DNA of 64,000 nucleotides from Medicago truncatula (lineage: Eukaryota; Streptophyta; Magnoliopsida; Fabales; Fabaceae), in contig NC_053043.1 in the NCBI RefSeq assembly GCF_003473485.1, positions 14,208,001 to 14,272,000 of the forward strand, read 5' to 3'. The notes beneath the pieces were generated by a model that saw only the letters and a list, made by a program, of their open reading frames with translations, did no database searches and had not been told where the DNA came from. How positions within the stretch are numbered: the stretch's first letter is position 1; each line of letters starts with the position of its first letter. Shown here piece after piece: positions 10,920 to 61,320 of the stretch. Made by a program: the position numbers and the translations under genes.

Positions 10920-11260
10920 GTCTGTTTGTTGCATATTATATAAATAGATAAAAAGTGACTTTTTTTTATAGATAAGTTAATATATATAGTTGTTATCTTA
11001 TTGTTTTTCTCTTTTACTGATTTTAACTATGGTCATTCAACTTCATTAACTTTTAACTCAAGTTAGTTCAGACTTCTATATCATTTAAAGAAATTGGTTT
11101 TAACATTTAATAATTTAAAGTTTATTTTTAAAAGATTTTTTGAAAAATAGAAGTTACATTGTACTTGTTTACCATAATGTAAATCACTTTTTTATATAAA
11201 AAACATCATTTATCAAAAATGTTATTTAAGAAAAACTATTCAAAATAGCTTTTATATTTT
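10920..11260. other. Intergenic upstream of the LIN-like gene
   Basis: AT-rich DNA without ORFs or repeats that I can name. It likely contains the distal promoter of the minus-strand LIN-like gene. Confidence 0.4.
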
Positions 11261-11863
11261 AGGCAAAATTACTTCATGGATCATTTATATCTTATTTAAT
11301 TGTAACAGTTAAGTCTTTTATCTTTTCTTTGTCTCGTTCAAGTCATTTATCTTATTTATTTGTAACAATTGAGTCCTTTGTCTTATTTTTTTGTTCTGTT
11401 CAAATCATTTATCTGTTAAAATGTGTACAAATTAGTCTTTTCTTCATTTATTTTATTAAAAAAAGGTGTTGAGGTGGTTTGCCCCAAGTATGATTATTAG
11501 TAATAATTAATTTTTATTATAAATAATTTTCCTCGTTAAAAAACTCAGAAAAACAAATATTCATCTTCTTATTCATATGTTCATCACATTCACCATCATC
11601 ATATTTTTCATCAAACCCATAAAATTCAAATCAAATTATTAAGATTTAGTGTCTCAAATCAAAACTTAGAAAACACCAACCCTAATAATTATATGTGGCT
11701 TGTCTCATTAATGTTTTTTTAATGAAAATGAAAAAGAAAAGAAAAAAGACCAACTTGCAAACATTTCAAGAGATAAACAATTTGAATGGGACAAAAAAAA
11801 AACCATAAAGGATTAAACCGTTACAAATAAGTAAGATTAAGGACCACTAAAGTAATTTTGCCT
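11261..11863. mobile_element. Non-autonomous TIR element, ~600 bp
   Basis: The left end AGGCAAAATTACTTCATGGA matches the complement of the right end (AGGCAAAATTACTTTAGTGG). Similarity continues inward over at least ~90 bp, including TTATTTGTAAC and AATCCTTTAT-type words. The interior is non-coding. The flanks outside GGC/GCC are TATATTTTA and TATATTTAT, 7 of 9 identical, which suits a 9-bp Mutator-type target duplication that has drifted. Confidence 0.6.
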
Positions 11864-13170
11864 ATATTTATGCAGTTCTTATATTTCTTTTTCAGATTCT
11901 CATTTTTTTTTAAATCCATAACAAATGGATAAAAGCTCTTAAACATGTATTTTTATAAAAATAAATAAAAAAATTAAAGTGAACTACAGCAAACATGTTC
12001 ATAATGATATGAGTTTATACAAGTGTTGAGTAGAACCTAGACTCTCCCCAGTCGATATAATCGTATAGATATATAGTTAAGTGATTTCAATTGCTCAATC
12101 AAGATCGAACTATTTGTATTAGAACTTCGCAAAAACAAATTGAAAACATGAAGTTATAGTTTTTATGTCGTCTCAAAGCATACTTCCTAAAAAAAACACT
12201 ATTTTTGGATCTGAAAGTATAATTCTAGACATATGTGAGGATATTTAGAAACCTAGGGTGGAAAAAAGTATCTCACATGTGTGATAGTATGCAATTTATT
12301 TCCGTGTTAAGTCTTCTACATGACACACAATTAATAGAGGTTCAACATCATGTAGCAGTTTCCTCCCGTGAATGTCTTAACAAGAATCCAAATTTTGATT
12401 GGCCCCTATAATCTTAAATTGCTTTCAAACAAAAACATATGAGAAAATTAAAATACCATTGCCTTTATTGAGAGGGAAAAATTGGAAAAGGTTGGAAACT
12501 TTTACACTATACTGCTCAAATTCACGTGTGCTTTTTCTTTCCTTTTACGTTTCATTGCCAACCTAACACAATGCTAAATGTTCATACATACTTTTGTTTA
12601 TAAATGTAGTGAGTATGTGTATAATTAGCTTGTGAGTTGTGACTAGTCATTCAGATATCATGTGCTGTGGAAAATGGACAGAAATTAGAGGAAATAAATG
12701 TAATCTAGTACACTCCAAAAATTGTTTAGAAAATCACGTTGTCGTTTCAGGATATAGTTATGATATTTTTATTTATTTACACGTCCACTAGTTGTTTGTT
12801 TCATCACAGATACACACAAACTATTAAATTAGGCTTTGAGAAATAAAATTAATATTATTTAACATTTAGTAAAAAAAAAAAACATGTTGCCACTTGCCAT
12901 GCATTTTGATATTGCTTTCTAAAGAGACGTGATTTTCACAAACTGATAAATCCTTTGAGATGTCGCTATCCTTTTTTTTTTTAAGAAGAAGAAATGTCAC
13001 TGACCTAATATATTGTGCCTGGGCTTTTATAAATAGATAGATATATTTGCTGGAAATTCTGCCCATTGATACTTAAGCAATATATTGGCCTCAAGCATGA
13101 ATATTTTTTTGAATTTTATTTTTACGAAAAAATGTACTCTTGTTTATAGGTATTATTTATTATTAATAAG
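11864..13170. other. AT-rich intergenic DNA
   Basis: No coding potential recognised. It contains poly-A and poly-T tracts, for example 12871-12882 and 12972-12982. Confidence 0.45.
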
Positions 13171-25718: not shown

Positions 25719-26810
25719 TCAAGCTACAACGCCAAAGTTTTTTAGCTTATCACAGTGAGGAATAGGCAAATGCCTATTCCAAGTACGCCTCTGAATCTCC
25801 AGTTGACAATAACGACGAAGCATATTCCTATAATCCTTAATAACAGTATCCTCAATGGTCTCGCGAGCCAAACTTCCAATCGGATAATTAACGTCAAACG
25901 CCTGAGATTTCACGAAAAACTCAACCCCATAATCCTCAGTAACCTTCCGAATCTGGTAGGACTGATTCTTGTGCAACGAATATTCAGGCTCCGAAAAGGG
26001 CAAGTAAGCAAGCAAAACAATAATCAACAACGGCAGAAGCTGAATCAACAACATAAGATGATGTCCTCCTCCACCCTGAACCTCAGGTCTCTGATGATGA
26101 TGATGATGACCCATTCCACCACCGCCATGTGTCCTATAAACATGATTCCTCCTCCCCCCAAACACATCCGATTGACCAAAGAACGCTCTAAATATCTCAT
26201 CGGGATCAAATTCATCTTCGAAAATATCATGACTCGTCGCAGCCCGTCTCCTCCTTCTCCTAAAACTATGATTCTGACCATAACCAGAATCAAATTCATC
26301 AACTAACCCTCCTTGATCATAATCCCTTCTAGTCCCATCATCACTCAAACACTTAAAAGCCTTAGAAACTTTCTTAAACGCATCTTCGGAACCCGGTGCT
26401 TTATTCTTATCAGGATGAACTTTCAAAGACAATTTCCTATAAGCTTTCCTAATCTCTTCAACAGAACAACTCTTCTCTAACCCTAAAATCGAATAATAAT
26501 CACTTTTCCCTTTAATTTCCCTAATCAACTTAACATTCTCCTCCGTGTAATTCTTCTCACCATTCAATCCATCGTTTTTGTTGATTCTTCCTGGTCTATC
26601 CTTCGCCGGCGATGCACCGACGCCGGATGAAGAAGCGGTGGACTGAGAATCAAGGTGTTCGCATTTGGCGAAGAGGGAATCGAGTGGTAAATCGTGGTTG
26701 AGGCGTTGAGCGATTTTGATGAATTTGAGAGCGCGAGATTTGTTACCTGATGAGATTGCTTCTTCTGCGATTTGAATGCATCGTAAAGCTTCGTCTTTGT
26801 TACCTTCCAT
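25719..26810 (-). CDS. ER membrane J-domain protein (DnaJ, DUF1977 type), 363 aa
   Basis: The gene is intronless. Residues 1-50 form the conserved plant N-terminal helix region (MEGNKDEALRCIQIAEEAI). The J domain lies at ~104-165 with the HPD tripeptide at 132-134 (VHPDKNKAPGSEDAFK), which stimulates Hsp70 ATPase. A basic, Gly/His-rich linker follows. A single hydrophobic segment at ~251-272 (HLMLLIQLLPLLIIVLLAYL) and a C-terminal DUF1977-like region (~263-361) complete it. This architecture matches the eukaryotic DNAJB12/B14 group of ER tail-anchored co-chaperones and their Arabidopsis homologues. The J domain would face the cytosol and act in ER protein quality control; that role is inferred from family. 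The stop codon is at 25719-25721. A truncated tandem paralogue lies at 29746-30441. Confidence 0.92.
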   Translation of the reverse strand: MEGNKDEALRCIQIAEEAISSGNKSRALKFIKIAQRLNHDLPLDSLFAKCEHLDSQSTASSSGVGASPAKDRPGRINKNDGLNGEKNYTEENVKLIREIKGKSDYYSILGLEKSCSVEEIRKAYRKLSLKVHPDKNKAPGSEDAFKKVSKAFKCLSDDGTRRDYDQGGLVDEFDSGYGQNHSFRRRRRRAATSHDIFEDEFDPDEIFRAFFGQSDVFGGRRNHVYRTHGGGGMGHHHHHQRPEVQGGGGHHLMLLIQLLPLLIIVLLAYLPFSEPEYSLHKNQSYQIRKVTEDYGVEFFVKSQAFDVNYPIGSLARETIEDTVIKDYRNMLRRYCQLEIQRRTWNRHLPIPHCDKLKNFGVVA

Positions 26811-27157
26811 GGCGTCGATTTTGACCTAATCGGAAATTGAATCGGGAACCTAATCGGTAAAATGGAAGAAGCTACCAACTTAGAGCGAAGATTGTTTGTG
26901 TTTCAGAACAGTGTCGGCATTGTTGTTCCTTCTCGACAAGTAATTATGATGTTTTTTCTAACTAATTTTAAGTGTTTTTTATAAGCAAAGTTTTGTTGCT
27001 TTTTATTTGTTGTTTTTGTTTTTTCTTCAAATTTTAAAGTAATATTAATGTTGTTATATACCAAAATCATTTTAACGTCAAAAAAAATTCATTTTGCTTA
27101 TTTATTGAAGAGAAAAAAAATTGAGTTACGATAATAAATAAAAAAAATAATTTGAAG

Positions 27158-27408
27158 ATAGTAAGGAATTAAAAGTTTTTAGAATAGCTTAAACAGAAAC
27201 ATATACTAGTATTAATTATTGTCCCTACTCTTTAAATGCGTATGTTTTAATTCATTTTTCTACCTGATCAAATGGCTTCTTGGAATTTACATTTCTTGGA
27301 GAATAACTTTGGTGGTGGAAAACTGAATTAAAGCATACGCATTTAAAGAGCTAAGGGGTAATAATTAGTACTAGTATAAGATATTCTCAAAACTTTTAAT
27401 TCCTTTGA
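27158..27408. repeat. 250-bp foldback element
   Basis: The left arm contains GGAATTAAAAGTTTTTAGAA, TACTAGTATTAATTATT and CTTTAAATGCGTATG. The complement of the right arm contains GGAATTAAAAGTTTTGAGAA, TACTAGTACTAATTATT and CTTTAAATGCGTATG. The arms are about 90-100 bp each around a ~60-bp loop. It has no coding content and is likely a MITE. Confidence 0.75.
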
Positions 27409-27424
27409 ACTCCATTTTTTATAA

Positions 27425-28450
27425 TGTCATAGTGGCTATTGAGGTTATTCATTACATGTAGACAAAGACTAAAGGTAACGACAATTGTGTGGCCCTAAAG
27501 CTTGACATCATTAAAGCTTATGACATGATAGTTTGGGAGTATATGCGAGAGCCGATGAGTAAAATGGGTTTTGGAGCGAGGTGGATTCAGTGAATGACTA
27601 TGTTTGTGGAATACGTTGATTACTTGATTCTTGTTAACAATGAAGCGGTAGGTCTCGTGATCCCAAGATGTGGCTTCAGACATTGGTGACATAGAGTTCG
27701 GTGACATTGGTGACATTGGTCAATCACAATGTCACAATGCTTGTGAAAGAGAGAGAAACACAAGCATTGTGACATTGTGATTGCCAATGTCATCCAACTC
27801 TATGTCACCCAAGTGCTACCCTGAGACAAGGGGACCATCTCTCCCTTTATCTCTTCATTATCTGTGTAGATGGTCTATGCTCACTCATTTGGTGCTCTGA
27901 GGAGCGTAGAGAAATTCGAGGTACGACGGTTTGTAGCGGTTCCCATTCGGAGTCACGTCTTTTGTTTACAGATGATTGCTTCTTTTGCTTCCAAGCAGAA
28001 GCGAGTCAAACACAAGTCATGAAAAACATTCTAACATCATATGAAGTAGCGTCGAGCCAAGTTATTAGTCTCCCTAAGTTAGAAATTTATTTCAAGAGGA
28101 ATGTCAATATTCTATCACCAACATTATGTGTGTTTAGGTTGTGCTTTGATACATGCAAATACTTAGGTTTATTGTCCATGATTGGTCGAGATAAGATAAC
28201 AATTTTTTCTTTTATAAAAGTTCGTGTTTGATTGAAAATCAACTCTTGGAGTAGCAAATGTCTTTCTAAAGCAAGTCGCGAAGTCGTGATCAAATTGGTT
28301 CGACAAGCTATTCCATTTTATGTTTGATCGGTTGTCAGATGACAAATTGATCTGAAAAGCTGAAAAGGATGGTGAGTATTCTCTAAAAAGTGCGTATAAG
28401 CTTTGCATGTAAGGTTTGATGGATACATCACATTTTCGAAGTAAATATGT
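27425..28450 (+). pseudogene. Decayed LINE reverse transcriptase
   Basis: Broken frames read GNDNCVALKLDIIKAYDMIVW (the LDxxKAYD catalytic block), MSKMGFGARWIQ, then LRQGDHLSLYLFIICVDGL and LLFTDDCFFCFQAEASQ. The second catalytic block is usually FADD and is FTDD here. KYLGLLSMIGRDK and other palm/thumb words follow. This is the standard order of a plant L1-type reverse transcriptase. Stops and frame changes are present, and a foldback insertion splits it between GLVIPR and LRQGD. Confidence 0.85.
27685..27809. repeat. Foldback inserted in the reverse transcriptase relic
   Basis: The inner arms 27721-27745 and 27759-27783 are a perfect 25-bp inverted repeat around a 13-base purine loop (AAAGAGAGAGAAA). 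The outer arms 27685-27710 and 27784-27809 match at 24 of 26 positions. The left arm carries an extra 10-bp TGACATTGGT repeat. The insertion interrupts reverse transcriptase coding sequence that is contiguous in the family. Confidence 0.9.
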
Positions 28451-28459
28451 ACATTTCAA

Positions 28460-28498
28460 CACTACAAGAAAATCATGTTTTTTGCGTCGGTCAAAAAT
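28460..28498 (+). mobile_element. Single CACTA-type terminus
   Basis: CACTACAAGAAAATCATG followed by TTTTTTGCGTCGG matches the typical end of plant En/Spm (CACTA) transposons. No matching opposite end was found nearby, so this is a solo end or the start of a degraded element. Confidence 0.5.
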
Positions 28499-28987
28499 TT
28501 TTGAAATTTATTTTATTTAATTTAAAATTTTGAAATTAAAAAATAAAGTGTTAGAATAGTTCAAAAGTGAGAAGTTATCGGCAATTATCTCTTATTTGCA
28601 TGAGAATGTGAGAGTTTCACTCTCTCACATGAAAATAAAGAATGATAAATTTATGAGTATATCATATTCTAAAGAATAAAAAACATTGACACATAAATCA
28701 TTAAAACTTGAAACAAACGTGATCATGTAAGATCTCCAACCTCGCACTAAGAATAAGTTCCAAATTCACAAAATAATAAACGCCCAAGTATAAATTAACT
28801 ATGTCAAACTTTTTTTAAAATGTCATTCTATAATTATTTGAGAGCAGGTTCTTGATAAAGTTATACATTATCGAGATCTTAATACTAGTTATTTTGATAA
28901 CAAAAGGGGATAAATAGTTCACTTGGTTGAACTAAAAGATTAAATAAAGTAAGGAGTTAAATGCCATATATTTGAATACCGACAAAC

Positions 28988-29540
28988 AACGAATCAAATT
29001 ATCATAGCAGCGATGGCAGCCTCCCGAGCATGGTCGTATGAAGTGTAACGTTGATGCGGCGTTTTCTAGTCACCGTAACAAAACGGGAATTGGTATTTGC
29101 ATCCGTGACGAAGGGGGAGTTTTTGTGTTGGCTAGAACAATTAGCTTTATTGGTGTCTATCCGGTTGACATTGGGGAAGCTTTGGGCCTTTACCATGCGC
29201 TTCAATGGACGAGCGATATGCACCTTGTTATCATTGATATTGAAGTCGACTCTAAAACCACAAAAGATGGTCTTTATTCGGGTCGGGAAGACATAACCGA
29301 ATTTGGAAACATCATCACAGCCTCCCGGTCTTTGCTTTTGTCCAAGTTTACCAACTCTAGAGTGGAGTTTGTTAGGCGACAAGCTAATGTGGTGGCTCAC
29401 ACTCTTGCAAGGGAAGCCACATTTCTCGCTAGTCCCGTTATCTATTTTCATATACCCAATTGTATTGAAACTTTGATTATTAATGATGAAATGCTATAAG
29501 CACCTTTCCCTAAAAAAAAAAAACGAATCAAATTATCATA
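28988..29540 (+). mobile_element. Young 5'-truncated LINE with 19-bp target-site duplication
   Basis: The element spans 29007-29521. It starts inside the sequence coding just before the RNase H domain and ends in an A-run (29512-29523). It is bounded by the perfect direct repeat AACGAATCAAATTATCATA at 28988-29006 and 29522-29540. The 5' truncation, poly-A end and long target duplication are the signature of target-primed reverse transcription. Confidence 0.92.
29038..29499 (+). CDS. Intact RNase H-like (RVT_3) domain inside the truncated LINE, 153 aa
   Basis: An open frame starts MKCNVDAAFSSHRNKTGIGI and carries the RNase H order: VDAAF (first Asp), IGEALGLYHAL (Glu helix), VDSKTTKDG (Asp strand) and FVRRQANVVAHTLAREA (last conserved His helix). 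It ends CIETLIINDEML. It is the C-terminal domain of a LINE polyprotein cut off by 5' truncation. No promoter is evident and a cellular role is not implied. It has no disabling change, in keeping with a recent insertion. Confidence 0.8.
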   Translation: MKCNVDAAFSSHRNKTGIGICIRDEGGVFVLARTISFIGVYPVDIGEALGLYHALQWTSDMHLVIIDIEVDSKTTKDGLYSGREDITEFGNIITASRSLLLSKFTNSRVEFVRRQANVVAHTLAREATFLASPVIYFHIPNCIETLIINDEML

Positions 29541-29745
29541 CGAAAATAAAAATCAATCAATGTACTAGCATTTAAACGTACTAATGTTTGTTATTCAAAA
29601 AACTATTTTGATAACAAGTTAATTAAAATCAACAAAATAGCAAAAACAGAATAATAATAAAAATTGCTTCTATTATGCCAATGAGTATGTTCTTGCAAAT
29701 TGCACATCAAAGAATTTTCAAAGTACAGTGATGCCACAGTTAATG

Positions 29746-30441
29746 TCATAATTCAAAGTTAAATATATCATCATCTGGATCAAATTCATCTTCGCAAGTA
29801 TCATCCCTCCTCCCAAAACTATGCTTCTGATCATAATTCAAATCATCATGATCACATTCATTTCTCTTATAACTATGATTCTTATTATAAAAGTTCAAAT
29901 CATCATCTTCATTAACCCAAACACCACGATCATACTCTTTTCTTGAACCATCATCACTCAAACACTGAAAAGCATTAGAAACTTTCTTAAATGCGTCTTC
30001 CGAACCCGGTGCTTTATTCTTATCAGGATGAACTTTCAAAGATAATTTCTTATAAGCTTTTCTAATCTCTTCAATAGAACAACTCTTCTCTAACCCTAAA
30101 ATCATATAGTAATCATCTTCCCATAAAATTTCTCTAATCAAATTAACATTCTTTTCCATGTAATTCTTTTCACCTTTCAAACCATTCTCTTTCATGATTC
30201 TTACCGGCCTTTCCTTCGCAGGCACCTTAGGCAAGGGTGGTGGGTTAGAGCCTCTTGTGGAAGAAGCAGAAGACTGTGATTTGAGTCGTTCGCATTTGGC
30301 TAACAAGGAATCAAGAGGTAGATCGCGGTTGAGGCGCTGAGCGATCTTGATGAATTTGAGAGCGCGAGATTTGTTACCTGATGAGATTGCTTCTTCTGCG
30401 ATTTGGATGCATCGCAATGCTTCGTCTTTGTTACCTTCCAT
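29746..30441 (-). CDS. Truncated J-domain paralogue lacking the membrane anchor, 231 aa
   Basis: The start is taken at MEGNKDEALRCIQIAEEAI (30441) by comparison with the paralogue at 25719-26810. An in-frame ATG also exists at 30477. The N-terminal helix region and J domain (VHPDKNKAPGSEDAFKKVSN, HPD present) are well conserved. After FGRRDDTCEDEFDPDDD the sequence diverges and ends IFNFEL. The transmembrane segment and DUF1977 of the intact gene are missing. The region before the end holds a short internal duplication (DDLNFYNKNHSYKR / DDLNYDQKHSFGRR). If expressed it would be a soluble J protein, so it is either a degenerating tandem duplicate or a neofunctionalised soluble co-chaperone. 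The break point lies close to the LINE insertion at 29007-29521. Confidence 0.75.
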   Translation of the reverse strand: MEGNKDEALRCIQIAEEAISSGNKSRALKFIKIAQRLNRDLPLDSLLAKCERLKSQSSASSTRGSNPPPLPKVPAKERPVRIMKENGLKGEKNYMEKNVNLIREILWEDDYYMILGLEKSCSIEEIRKAYKKLSLKVHPDKNKAPGSEDAFKKVSNAFQCLSDDGSRKEYDRGVWVNEDDDLNFYNKNHSYKRNECDHDDLNYDQKHSFGRRDDTCEDEFDPDDDIFNFEL

Positions 30442-30968
30442 GGTGCGAATACGACTAGATTTTGATGTGAATCTCAAAATTGAGCAACCTAATTAGGAAA
30501 AGATGAACAAATAGATTAATTATTTATTTGTAAGATGAATATGAGTGTGGAATGGAAGGGAGAAGAGTTACCTAATACGGTGGAATGGAGTGGATCATTA
30601 TTGTTTCTTGTGAAGAATTGATCTCTAATTCCTATATGAGTGAATGAAGCTCAAATTTGCAAAACCTAATTTTCTTTTGTTTCTTGTTTACGTAAATTTG
30701 CAAAACCTAATTTGAATAAGAAAATTAAGAAAGTTGAATAATAGATGATTTTTACTAATGCTGAATCTTAAGAATGGCGTGGCCTTCTTAAAACGGCATA
30801 CTCCTTTTTTCTAGGGCATCAACAATCGAAGTTGAATAGATTGAACGGTTATGATCAATTATTAAATTTAAAATCTGCACTCAGCCATGCACCGCACGTC
30901 TTCAACATGGTTTCAAGCTTGATGAAATATTGTATCGTGCCATATTGGTTGTTTGTGTATTCAAAACC

Positions 30969-31522: not shown

Positions 31523-32599
31523 GTTTACTCTATTAATTTTTTATTTATATTGAATAAAATAATCTCCTACTTTTTTTGAAATACAAAAAACTAAAGTTGC
31601 ACATGTTAAAATCCAAAGAACTATTTGACACGTGTTCGTAAAGTTTCATAAATAGGTTAGCACTACATAACATCTCTGTTTTTGTAATTGGTACGAGTGA
31701 ATGAAGAATTTATCTGATACGGTAAACCGGAGAAGCTGCCGATTTATTCCGAGTGAAATTGTTGTTGTTTAGGGATGACAATGAATAGGGTATGGGTAGC
31801 ATTTCATTTTGGTCCCTAAAATATTACGCACAAAGACAAACAAAAAAGCAAAAACCAATTATATAAAGCAATATATTTGCAAAGATTGAAAATGAACAAT
31901 GTAAAAATTTATGTCGTTGTAGCTTTACCTTAAATGAGAAGTGTTATTTGAACAACCATTTTGTTGACAACTTACAAGACAACCATAATTTACAAAGAAA
32001 AAGTTAAATATTTGCACAAAAACCAAAGCAATAGAGAGATAAAGTAAAAAGTAATATGAGTATGAGAGAGAAATTTGTCACAAAAGTTGTCACAAAATGG
32101 ATGTTCAAATATCATTTCAATAAGAGGTGGTATACTATCATCCCCTCAAAAAAAGATTAGTATACTATCATGTCGAACACTTAATTGCAGGGGTTCATAC
32201 GGGTATATCTTATTAACATTATGCAATAACATTTGTATCTTTAATATGGTTCGGGAACTTCCCTCATTGCTGTCAATCTCATGGTATAACAAAAATACAG
32301 TTGAAATACAAAACTTCAAAAAAGGATGAGTGAAATTAATATTGATCTACACATAGCAATTCAAAGATGCATGCTTGTTTTTGAACAACAATGCCGCACG
32401 ACCCTTGTGAACGCATGGATATATTACTAGTTTAATAAGAAAATAAACTCTCGTCAAGTTGCTAAGCTATTTACATCAGCCGATCAGCGTTAAGCAACAA
32501 TGAGCAAAAGAACGAGCTCTTATACTAGTCGCCAGAAAAGAGCTGTCATTTGGACTCTAGAGGCACCTAGAAGAAGGAAAACTAAAACCTAATACATTT
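31523..32599. other. Intergenic, 3' flank of CAP-D3
   Basis: Sequence at 31690-31770 (CGGTAAACCGGAGAAGCTGC) resembles the region just upstream of the intact DnaJ start (CGGTAAAATGGAAGAAGCTAC), so a duplicated promoter fragment may be present. Otherwise no gene. The last ~100 bases probably hold the CAP-D3 3' UTR. Confidence 0.35.
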
Positions 32600-49009: not shown

Positions 49010-49900
49010 AACATGACCTTTAAATTATTAAGGAGATCAGTCCACTCTATTTCACTTTGGTGGAAAGACTTATCCGTGCTTGATAAGGTTAGGGGTAAGG
49101 ATCACGATTGGTTGTTTGATTTTGTGAATAAAAAAACTGGTAATTGAAAAAACACCCTTTTTTGACATGATAATTAGACATTGAACACTTCACTCAGAGA
49201 AGCATTCCCTACATTGTTTTCTATGTGGCTTCAAAAATCTTGTTGTATTCAAGATATTGAATATATAGCGGAGGGGTCTTGGAAATGGGAGTTGAAGCGG
49301 CAGAGAAATTTGTTGAATGAGAAAAACAACTATTTCAAGATCTTAGGGAACTAATTGGAGGGGTTGAAATCAGTAGTGATAATGACAATCCGATTTATAT
49401 GCGGCACTTGACAAAATTCTCACAACAATAGTTTCTTAAAAATATATGAAAATGATCAAAAAAATTAAACAGTAGTTAATTACCGTCGATTTTTCTGTTA
49501 TAAATTAGCGGTAGTTAACTACCGCTAGGAATTTTTGTTCATTTCCATGTATTTCTAAGAAACAATAAATGTCAAAACAACAATTTTCAAAGTTTTTATC
49601 AGAGATAAATTTATCCCTAATTACACGAAAGGGCTTGAGAACAAATTGGAATAGTCTTGCACGTCAAAGGTTCAAACATTTGCTTGGTAACTCCTCCTTA
49701 GAAGACTCCCAACCAGTGGAAATTTATCAAAGAGGGGGATTTTTGGTAAGGATAGGGCAGCAGATTGTGTATGGTGCCCGAGAGTGTTGGTGGATGAGGA
49801 TCATTTGTTTTGTAGGTGCGTTTTCTTTGAGTTGGTGTGGTACCATATTTTTAAATGGGTGGGTACATGAGTTGTGTTGCCCCGGAATGCTACCTCTCTC
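49010..49900 (+). pseudogene. LINE relic with reverse-transcriptase zinc-binding (zf-RVT) region
   Basis: The first part reads FKLLRRSVHSISLWWKDLSV. Later frames read ADCVWCPRVLVDEDHLFCRC then VFFELVWYHIFKWVG. The Cys-rich CxxC...HLFxxC pattern followed by a W..I..W helix is typical of the zf-RVT region at the end of plant LINE reverse transcriptases. Stops and shifts are frequent. Confidence 0.6.
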
Positions 49901-50189
49901 CTAGATGATTTCTCCTCTTCCTCATCAAATAGCAAACACTGAAAAGGTCTATTGTTAATACGACAAACAACTGTCTGGAAGATTTGAGAATCAAGAAATG
50001 AGAAGATTTTTTTGTTTTTTAATGATCATTTTATTAGATTTTAGCTAGAAAAAAAAGATCACTTGCATCTATGAACGATTTTCTCCCCTTCACTGTTTTT
50101 CAAGAGTTAGTTTTTGTACTTTGTTGGCCCATGTACCTCTTATACTTCTACGTATTTATTTTGAATGTCATGTACTATTTTTACTAAAC
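49901..50189. other. Intergenic DNA left of the gene-capture element
   Basis: No coding or repeat feature recognised. The TIR of the next element begins at about 50190. Confidence 0.35.
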
Positions 50190-51033
50190 TAAATAGGCAA
50201 TTATTCTATGAAATTGTAAGTTTCGTCAATTACCCTATGAAATTAACAAAACTTTAATTATTCTCTGAAATTGCACAACGTTAATCAATTTACCCCCTCC
50301 GTCAAATTCTTCTGTTAGTCAACATGACGTTTTGCAAATACCTCCATGAAGTTTTGCACTTATGTGCAAAATACCCCCCGAACTTAAAAATTTATATTTT
50401 TTTTCTTCCTAAACTTGACTCAAAAGATATTAAAGGCAAACAAGGAAGCTTGAGAAATGCATTTAAGATTCAAAGAATAGCTTAAAGAGTTACTTGGTGA
50501 AGGGTACTATGGTAAATGAGGATTACAAAAAGTGTTTATTGAAAAGAAATACATTGGTGGAGTTGAGGAAATTCAAAAACTTCATGATGACAAGAAGCTT
50601 GAGAAATTGCTTGATCGTTGTGAAAGGATTGATGACATTGAAGGAGGTGATGGTGGATGTGAGGCTTGTGGTGATATAAAGTTTGTTCCTTGTGAAACAT
50701 ATCATAAAAGTTGTAAAATCTACTATAAAGGTGATTATGAAGAAGATGATAATTGTGAGGTTGGTGGGTGAGTGTGGTTCCAAACGTGTTCTCATTGCAT
50801 TGAAAATGGCCTAATAAGATGTTACATATGTTGTTTCTAGTTTCATATTTCATTTTGACATAAGTGCAAAATTTTAGGGGAGTATTTGCAAAATATCATG
50901 TTAACTAAAAGAATAATTTGAAGTAGAGGGTAAATTGATTAACGTTGTACAATTTTAATGGATAATTGAAATTTTGTTAATTTTATAAAAAGAATTGACG
51001 AAACTTACAATTTTGAGGATAATTGCCTATTTA
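50190..51033. mobile_element. TIR element enclosing a captured glutaredoxin-family fragment (Pack-MULE-like)
   Basis: The left arm (50190-50373) begins TAAATAGGCAATTAT. The complement of the right arm (50851-51033) begins with the same 15 bases. Similarity continues for about 184 bp with shared blocks such as AATTGTAAGTTTCGTCAATT, ACGTTAATCAATTTACC and TTTTGCACTTATGT. I estimate roughly 80% identity. The interior holds a fragment of a cellular gene and no transposase. Long inverted arms around a host-gene fragment are characteristic of Pack-MULEs. I could not define a clean 9-bp target duplication, so the transposon superfamily is inferred. Confidence 0.7.
50457..50840 (+). pseudogene. Glutaredoxin-family (C-terminal Cys-rich, At5g03870/At3g28850-like) gene fragment
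   Basis: A single reading frame runs MHLRFKE-stop-LKELLGEGYYGK-stop-GLQKVFIEKKYIGGVEEIQ, then DIEGGDGGCEACGDIKFVPC, an in-frame stop at 50769, and SHCIENGLIRCYICCF to a stop at 50838. It matches the second half of the glutaredoxin fold (VFI...YIGGVEEIQ) plus the zinc-binding-like CxxC tail of a plant glutaredoxin-like subfamily. The N-terminal thioredoxin-fold active site is absent. Three in-frame stops but no frameshift indicate a captured fragment decaying by substitution. Confidence 0.8.
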
Positions 51034-52600
51034 CTCATTTTTATGCTACTCTCGTACATCTATAAAATTCATCTTACAATTTTTTTTACTCATCGTCCTT
51101 TTAAAAAAACATTTATACATTGTACTCGTGTCATAAAATCATCATTTATGTTACAGTACTGCCAATGTTTTTTCTTATAAATATCATCATGTATTGAAAA
51201 GTTAGTTAAACGGGTCCCTTGTGGCATTGTACACTAAATAAAATGTCTGATTGCTGCGTCCGTGTCAGCAACTACGGTCTACAGCTACCAAATGTCCATA
51301 AATGCTTGCTTGTTACTAAGTTGAGTAAAAAGATCTTGGTTTTGACATTAGGATTAAGCAGCCTTTACCTAAATTCTCAAGGGTACTAACTACGGTCTAC
51401 GAGTATAATCACCATTATTTCAAATTTCAAATTGCAAATCGCAGTTGAAATTCGTTGCAGAAGCAAATGTCATTCTAGGTCTCACAAGAAGAGGAAATTT
51501 TTCCTAGCTATGTTCACTCTATTTTCAAAGATTGTTAGGCCTTATAATTAAATTTCTCTTCTTTAGACCGTTATCATACATGTTTGTTTTAAATTTACCA
51601 AATTTATTTTTAGGAATAACATTCTTTGGAATATAAGGATGAGAATTTTATTTTGTCAAAAAAAGTATGGAAATTTTATTCCAAAATATTTAGGAAAAAT
51701 ATGTTTGGTTAACTTTATAATATTTTTAGGAAACATAAAATTTATTCTCATCTTCATGAAAATTTTATTCACACCCTTTTCTTTGAGAAATTTTTTCTAT
51801 TCCCATAAACATTTTATACTCGGGAATAAAATTTAGTAAACTTGTAACAAACATAGACATATATATTTCTATCATTTTATTCCCGAGAATCAACAAATAT
51901 AACTTCCTTAAAAAAAAAATATAACTTGAAACAAACTCACTCTAATGATAATAACTTAGCGCATTGTTTGGCAAAATTTGCTATTGTAAAGAGGATAATG
52001 TATGGATGCAAGATATATTAGAGATTAGAGACAATATTATAATTATTTTTCACCAAAGGGGACACACAATATTATTTTCATTGCTATTGTAAACTCTTAT
52101 ATTTGATTTACATTAATTGCATGTTTAGTGTGACTTTTAGAAATTTTAAAATTGTTCCTTAAAAAAAATGTTAAAATTTGTTTTCGTTATATTTAGTTTC
52201 TCTCGATTAAAATTTAACAAAAATGATTCTACCAAAGTTTAAAATTGAAACTTTTAATTATAGAATTGATTTTATTAATCAGATTTAATATTTAACTCAT
52301 TTTTACACAATTGAATCTAAAGATATACTTTTGATAACGGTAATCAATCTTACATAATTAATACACTCATAATCACTTTTGGTAAGGTGGAACCAAACTT
52401 ACACTAAACTATTGTTTAAATGAGAATTTACTTTGGATACCTACTTTTTAGATCGCTTAAAAAGCAGTTATTTATACCGGTGAAGAATTTGGTAGAGTAC
52501 CGAGTTGCGGTGGCGTTTGTTTAATTCACGGGCGAAACTAGAAAAAGGGCATATTAGTCTTTTAACACTCGTTGGTTCATTTCATTTTCATTCATTCATT
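51034..52600. other. AT-rich intergenic DNA upstream of kinesin-13A
   Basis: ACTACGGTCTAC occurs twice (about 51272 and 51388). Otherwise there are only homopolymer-rich sequences. No gene. Confidence 0.4.

Positions 52601-53098: not shown

Positions 53099-61320
<8,222 letters not shown>

Follow-up and report, generated by a model that had tools for sequence, protein, structure and literature searches.

The question raised by positions 50190 to 51033 of a 64,000-nucleotide stretch of the Medicago truncatula genome (assembly GCF_003473485.1, contig NC_053043.1, positions 14,208,001 to 14,272,000 of the forward strand; referred to below as the window) is what kind of element encloses part of a glutaredoxin-like gene between two long inverted repeats, and how that part came to be there. 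An initial annotation described the structure as having the look of a Pack-MULE, i.e., a Mutator-like element (MULE) carrying a host-gene fragment. From the evidence presented here, the locus is probably a decayed, non-autonomous Mutator-like plant DNA transposon of the Pack-MULE type, about 850 bp in length and with terminal inverted repeats (TIRs) of about 184 bp. The anatomy gives good support to the view that a long-TIR element has captured a gene fragment here, and its membership in the MULE superfamily is likely.

Inverted arms and the captured gene fragment

The left arm (50190-50372, plus strand) and the right arm (50852-51033, minus strand, 83% identical to the left arm) were delimited using a repeat search, BLAST and alignment of the arms. 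When the element was compared with the window using BLAST, the arms paired over 184 alignment columns at 83.2% identity (E 1.1e-47), and in a global alignment 155 of 179 ungapped columns were identical, with 7 gap columns, i.e., the arms are 13% diverged in the ungapped columns. Their outer edges are sharp and matching, and the first 15 bases are common to both (TAAATAGGCAATTAT), which confirms the earlier description of ~184-bp inverted arms with a shared beginning. The left arm contains three 18-nt sub-repeats at a spacing of 28-29 nt (starts at 50199, 50228 and 50256). No inverted ends within a single arm were listed by the repeat search, and BLAST showed within an arm only a palindrome of 20 nt, located at 50352-50371 toward the interior side of the left arm.

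Inverted pairs in the window were ranked by comparing the window with itself in BLAST (minus strand, dust on, E up to 1e-3), which listed six pairs. The arm pair has the joint best score, 182 bits, tied with repeats at 31925-32118 and 53631-53824, which are located ~22 kb apart; the runner-up pairs, of 114 and 96 columns, both originate from one element near 11.3-11.9 kb. Among ungapped inverted pairs at most 6 kb apart, that of the arms is the longest (135 nt vs 41 nt for the second). The arms also pass the long-TIR screen given in an excerpt of PMC3310237 (at least 100 bp and at least 80% identity), and their length falls within the 100-500 bp quoted there for MULE TIRs.

The interior between the arms spans 479 bp, which is too short for a transposase and agrees with the earlier remark that none is present (the Pfam search covered the glutaredoxin frame only). 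Of this interior, 384 bp (50457-50840, plus strand; 127 codons and a stop) were assigned, from Pfam and translation, to the 3' end of a captured 4CxxC-type glutaredoxin-like gene; this part begins 84 bp from the left arm, and its stop codon lies 11 bp from the right arm. The translation, in which X was written at each stop, matches the Pfam model PF23733 (GRXCR1-2_C) with E 1.2e-11 and a score of 44.8 bits (cut-off 26). The match spans all 47 model positions and, in the 127-residue translation, residues 68-126, and places a host-gene fragment inside the arms. The stop-free 83-residue part alone gives E 1.9e-6. For the upstream, Grx-fold part the PDB matches are weak, the best being buckwheat glutaredoxin (E 0.026, residues 18-58), and no glutaredoxin-domain match was listed in Pfam for the captured frame.

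The frame is interrupted at 50478 (TAG), 50517 (TGA) and 50769 (TGA) and ends with TAG at 50838; another stop is found at 50451, just upstream of the part taken as homologous. The three forward frames of 50457-50840 contain 4, 4 and 26 stops, and the three reverse frames contain 4, 10 and 3. A low number of stops is thus not proof of coding, and the coding claim rests on the PF23733 match. With that match and the stops located, the initial annotation was correct in reading the interior, in one frame with three stops, as coding for the C-terminal region of a glutaredoxin-like protein of which the tail is Cys-rich. Its further statement that the captured piece keeps its frame holds only loosely: the frame has three internal stops and the N-terminal half is missing. 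The active site of glutaredoxins is located in the N-terminal half, which is not part of the captured fragment. Because of the three internal stops a working protein is not expected, and judged from its sequence the captured frame is a pseudogene fragment.

Plant 4CxxC glutaredoxins are defined by a glutaredoxin domain to which a tail bearing four CxxC motifs is attached C-terminally, and we take the GRXCR1-2_C model to be linked with this class. Three motifs of the CxxC type are seen in the translation (CEAC, CSHC and CYIC), while one CxxC of the tail looks lost (CETY), as judged against the pattern of the family. The assignment of the fragment to the 4CxxC class is our judgement, made from the tail and known family members rather than from an aligned plant relative. 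As the name of a plant glutaredoxin class, 4CxxC appears in excerpts of PMC9405309 and PMC4844277; the subgroup IV described in the former shares the Cys-rich C-terminal tail and is the probable parental family, but the fragment found here is C-terminal only and has internal stops.

Probable assignment to Mutator-like elements and alternative origins

The target-site duplication (TSD), which in Pack-MULEs measures 9-11 bp and flanks the TIRs, bears directly on the superfamily and is the weak point of the assignment. An offset scan against random site pairs yielded the candidates ATTTTTACT (50177-50185) on the left and ATTTTTATG (51037-51045) on the right, which would set the element bounds at 50186-51036, with ends that are asymmetric by one base. 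In an excerpt of PMC4858842 two mismatches are allowed and the TSD may swing by up to 10 bp from the TIR ends; the candidate, with 7 of 9 positions identical, falls within this tolerance. Two mismatches are also tolerated in PMC3310237, where the TSD is required to lie directly at the TIR ends, and the candidate has this placement only if a slip of one base is allowed and a few terminal bases are left without a match. With arms that are 13% diverged, wear of the TSD is to be expected.

Several observations weigh against the assignment to MULEs. The best 9-bp TSD is imperfect (7/9, and this with one end shifted by a base), and among 4000 random site pairs 3.6% match as well. With symmetric ends the best 9-mer reaches 5/9, as do 36% of random pairs; for the other ten of the 12 settings, 3-62% of random pairs are as good. 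When 121 offsets are scanned, 7/9 is reached by 17% of 5000 random pairs, and the bases immediately outside TAAATAGG are unlike at the two ends. Furthermore, no further copy of the arms was found in the 64-kb window (the longest other arm match using BLAST has 33 columns at 82%), and the argument is built on the anatomy of a single copy. Of the Pack-MULE look, the gene-capture anatomy of arms and glutaredoxin fragment stands, but the MULE label is unproven, because the TSD is imperfect and near chance.

That same absence of a proven 9-bp duplication would be accommodated if the locus belonged to a different superfamily, as a foldback element or TIR transposon that captured the gene by the same mechanism; capture by hAT elements in frogs is described in an excerpt of PMC8277862, and we regard this origin as unlikely, although it is the alternative to be taken most seriously. 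The arms could also be two independent copies of a dispersed repeat that inserted to the left and right of a glutaredoxin pseudogene and happened to be oppositely oriented. Short dispersed repeats in opposite orientation do exist in the window, e.g., those at 31925-32118 and 53631-53824, but the arms match end to end over one and the same stretch, a single arm has no listed inverted ends beyond the 20-nt palindrome noted above, and the glutaredoxin part approaches the two arms to within 84 bp (left) and 11 bp (right). In addition, when the three forward frames of both flanks (49300-50189 and 51034-51900) were searched in Pfam, no glutaredoxin match was found outside the element. An origin from independent copies is therefore very improbable.

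We give equally small credence, or slightly less, to a local inverted duplication of non-transposon origin around a glutaredoxin pseudogene fragment. The lack of a second copy in the window is what such an event would leave behind, but the sub-repeats of the arm look transposon-like, and the terminal TAGGCAA, which has the look of a transposon end, is common to a second long-armed inverted repeat at ~11260-11864. The sequence TTGCCTA has two occurrences in the window, one at the right end of each of these elements, but TAGGCAA occurs ten times; because of these ten occurrences the common TAGGCAA start is a hint and no more.

Compared with known systems, the Pack-MULE-type element favoured here resembles other Pack-MULEs in its long TIRs, the lack of room for a transposase, the internal host-gene fragment and the small size, but differs in that its TSD is imperfect and not clearly above chance. 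According to an excerpt of PMC8277862, Pack-MULEs tend toward captures of high GC content, unlike the fragment here, of which the GC content (34%) is near that of the window (33%); the captured size quoted there, 305 bp, is of the same order as the 479-bp interior. The animal Pack-TIRs of the same excerpt likewise carry host sequence in a TIR element, and template switching during repair or replication is proposed for them, but they have identified parental copies and reside in animal genomes.

A proposed history of the element

A similar course of events may be envisaged here. Repair or replication inside an earlier form of the element would have switched template to a 4CxxC glutaredoxin-like gene, copying its last ~380 bp, stop codon included. 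Later, the transposase of an autonomous relative, provided in trans, would have used the arms to insert the element at the present site, where it presumably ceased moving, after which the arms and the fragment would have accumulated mutations; the fragment would have no protein function.

The left junction zone (50373-50456, plus strand), in which no gene homology was recognised, contains a possible trace of the capture. Positions 50440-50458 are an 18/19 direct copy of 50590-50607 within the glutaredoxin part, with an exact 14-nt core (50445-50458 = 50594-50607). When the stretch 50401-50852 (452 bp) was shuffled 2000 times with its dinucleotides kept, one shuffle contained an exact direct repeat of at least 14 nt, but such a repeat is present in 40 of 249 real 452-bp stretches of the window (overlapping, in steps of 250, simple repeats retained). 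Because such repeats are common in the window, the copy is only suggestive of template-switch filler. If the duplication is true filler, it would agree with models in which capture proceeds by template switching, but a single old copy is no demonstration of this.

The arms also contain information on decay and age. At 14 of the 18 transitions between them, C or G is found in the left arm and T or A in the right; read from left to right arm, the changes are C>T (9), G>A (5), T>C (4) and A>G (0), a bias that weakly fits decay of methylated cytosines, i.e., a methylated, silent element. Plant substitution rates used for dating range from 7e-9 to 1.5e-8 per site per year, and with a Kimura two-parameter distance of 0.151 between the arms the age would be about 5-11 million years, assuming that the arms were identical at the birth of the element.

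The initial annotation also raised the possibility that RNA from the element acts on the parental gene. The predicted RNA of the element forms a long arm-arm hairpin of -284.7 kcal/mol, compared to a mean of -172.0 kcal/mol for 20 shuffles; this low fold energy reflects the inverted repeat itself. In the predicted fold the glutaredoxin part occupies the terminal loop region with short local helices. Because the arms pair and the glutaredoxin part is found in the loop, hairpin small RNAs would, if the whole element is transcribed, derive mostly from the arms and not from the glutaredoxin part, and small RNAs directed at glutaredoxin would need antisense transcription. A scenario in which a promoter in an arm drives a transcript antisense to the fragment, and the resulting small RNAs modulate the parental 4CxxC glutaredoxin gene, is one to which we attach hardly any probability.

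Elements that carry gene fragments are well known, and the present one is an ordinary example of them. It adds a worn case to those in which a plant transposon with long TIRs has picked up part of a gene, here a glutaredoxin-like 3' end with its stop. Searches for relatives covered prokaryote, virus and plasmid collections, where misses are uninformative for plants: none of 107 pattern stretches in genome_contigs and none of 10 in viral_contigs was confirmed as a relative of the glutaredoxin fragment, a 19-base arm pattern had no occurrence in viral_contigs, and the whole element had no match among plasmids in distant mode. In the open-licence literature, Pack-MULE and glutaredoxin occur together in unrelated contexts in an excerpt of PMC5240378, a scope that allows no claim that the case is unpublished.

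Surroundings and other repeats in the window

Within the window, further nucleotide copies of the interior were limited to short BLAST matches. One of these, at 59822-59845 (24 columns, 96%, E 5.5e-4), is located between pieces of a putative kinesin gene. In the left flank, Pfam yielded zf-RVT (E 1.4e-8) and one chance-level match (E 0.78); the former marks a remnant of a long interspersed nuclear element (LINE) at ~49655-49840, in a frame with stops, of which a 44-residue piece alone had no match.

The element at 11260-11864 has terminal arms at 11260-11352 and 11771-11864, which pair over 96 columns with 75% identity, and an offset match covers 114 columns (78%). It also has tandem sub-repeats of ~31 nt and TAGGCAAAATTACTT at each end; from these features it is possibly MULE-like. 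The repeats at 31925-32118 and 53631-53824, each ~195 bp long and oppositely oriented, are copies of one short repeat and share 82% identity, and the first copy has ~36-bp inverted ends (31938-31973 and 32084-32118), which resemble those of a miniature inverted-repeat transposable element.

Pfam places open frames of the AT-rich window as kinesin, DnaJ and the ARM part of a LIN-type E3 ligase, and one frame has sub-threshold condensin/HEAT matches (Cnd1, 22.4 bits vs a cut-off of 26.4). Together with the type of the glutaredoxin, these genes point to plant nuclear DNA. Neither Rfam at the gathering threshold nor a tRNA scan gave any match in the window. Two DnaJ-family paralogues are found on the minus strand within 25719-30492 (25719-26825 and 29746-30492), separated by LINE-like remains with RVT_3 at 29008-29499 (E 2.7e-19) and a sub-threshold RVT_1 at 27773-28231 (E 0.045). 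A 207-bp tandem duplication (60264-60674; two copies, 90%) lies in the open frame 59982-60827 downstream of the kinesin motor piece, and a 249-bp tandem duplication, also of two copies at 90%, is found at 55041-55535.
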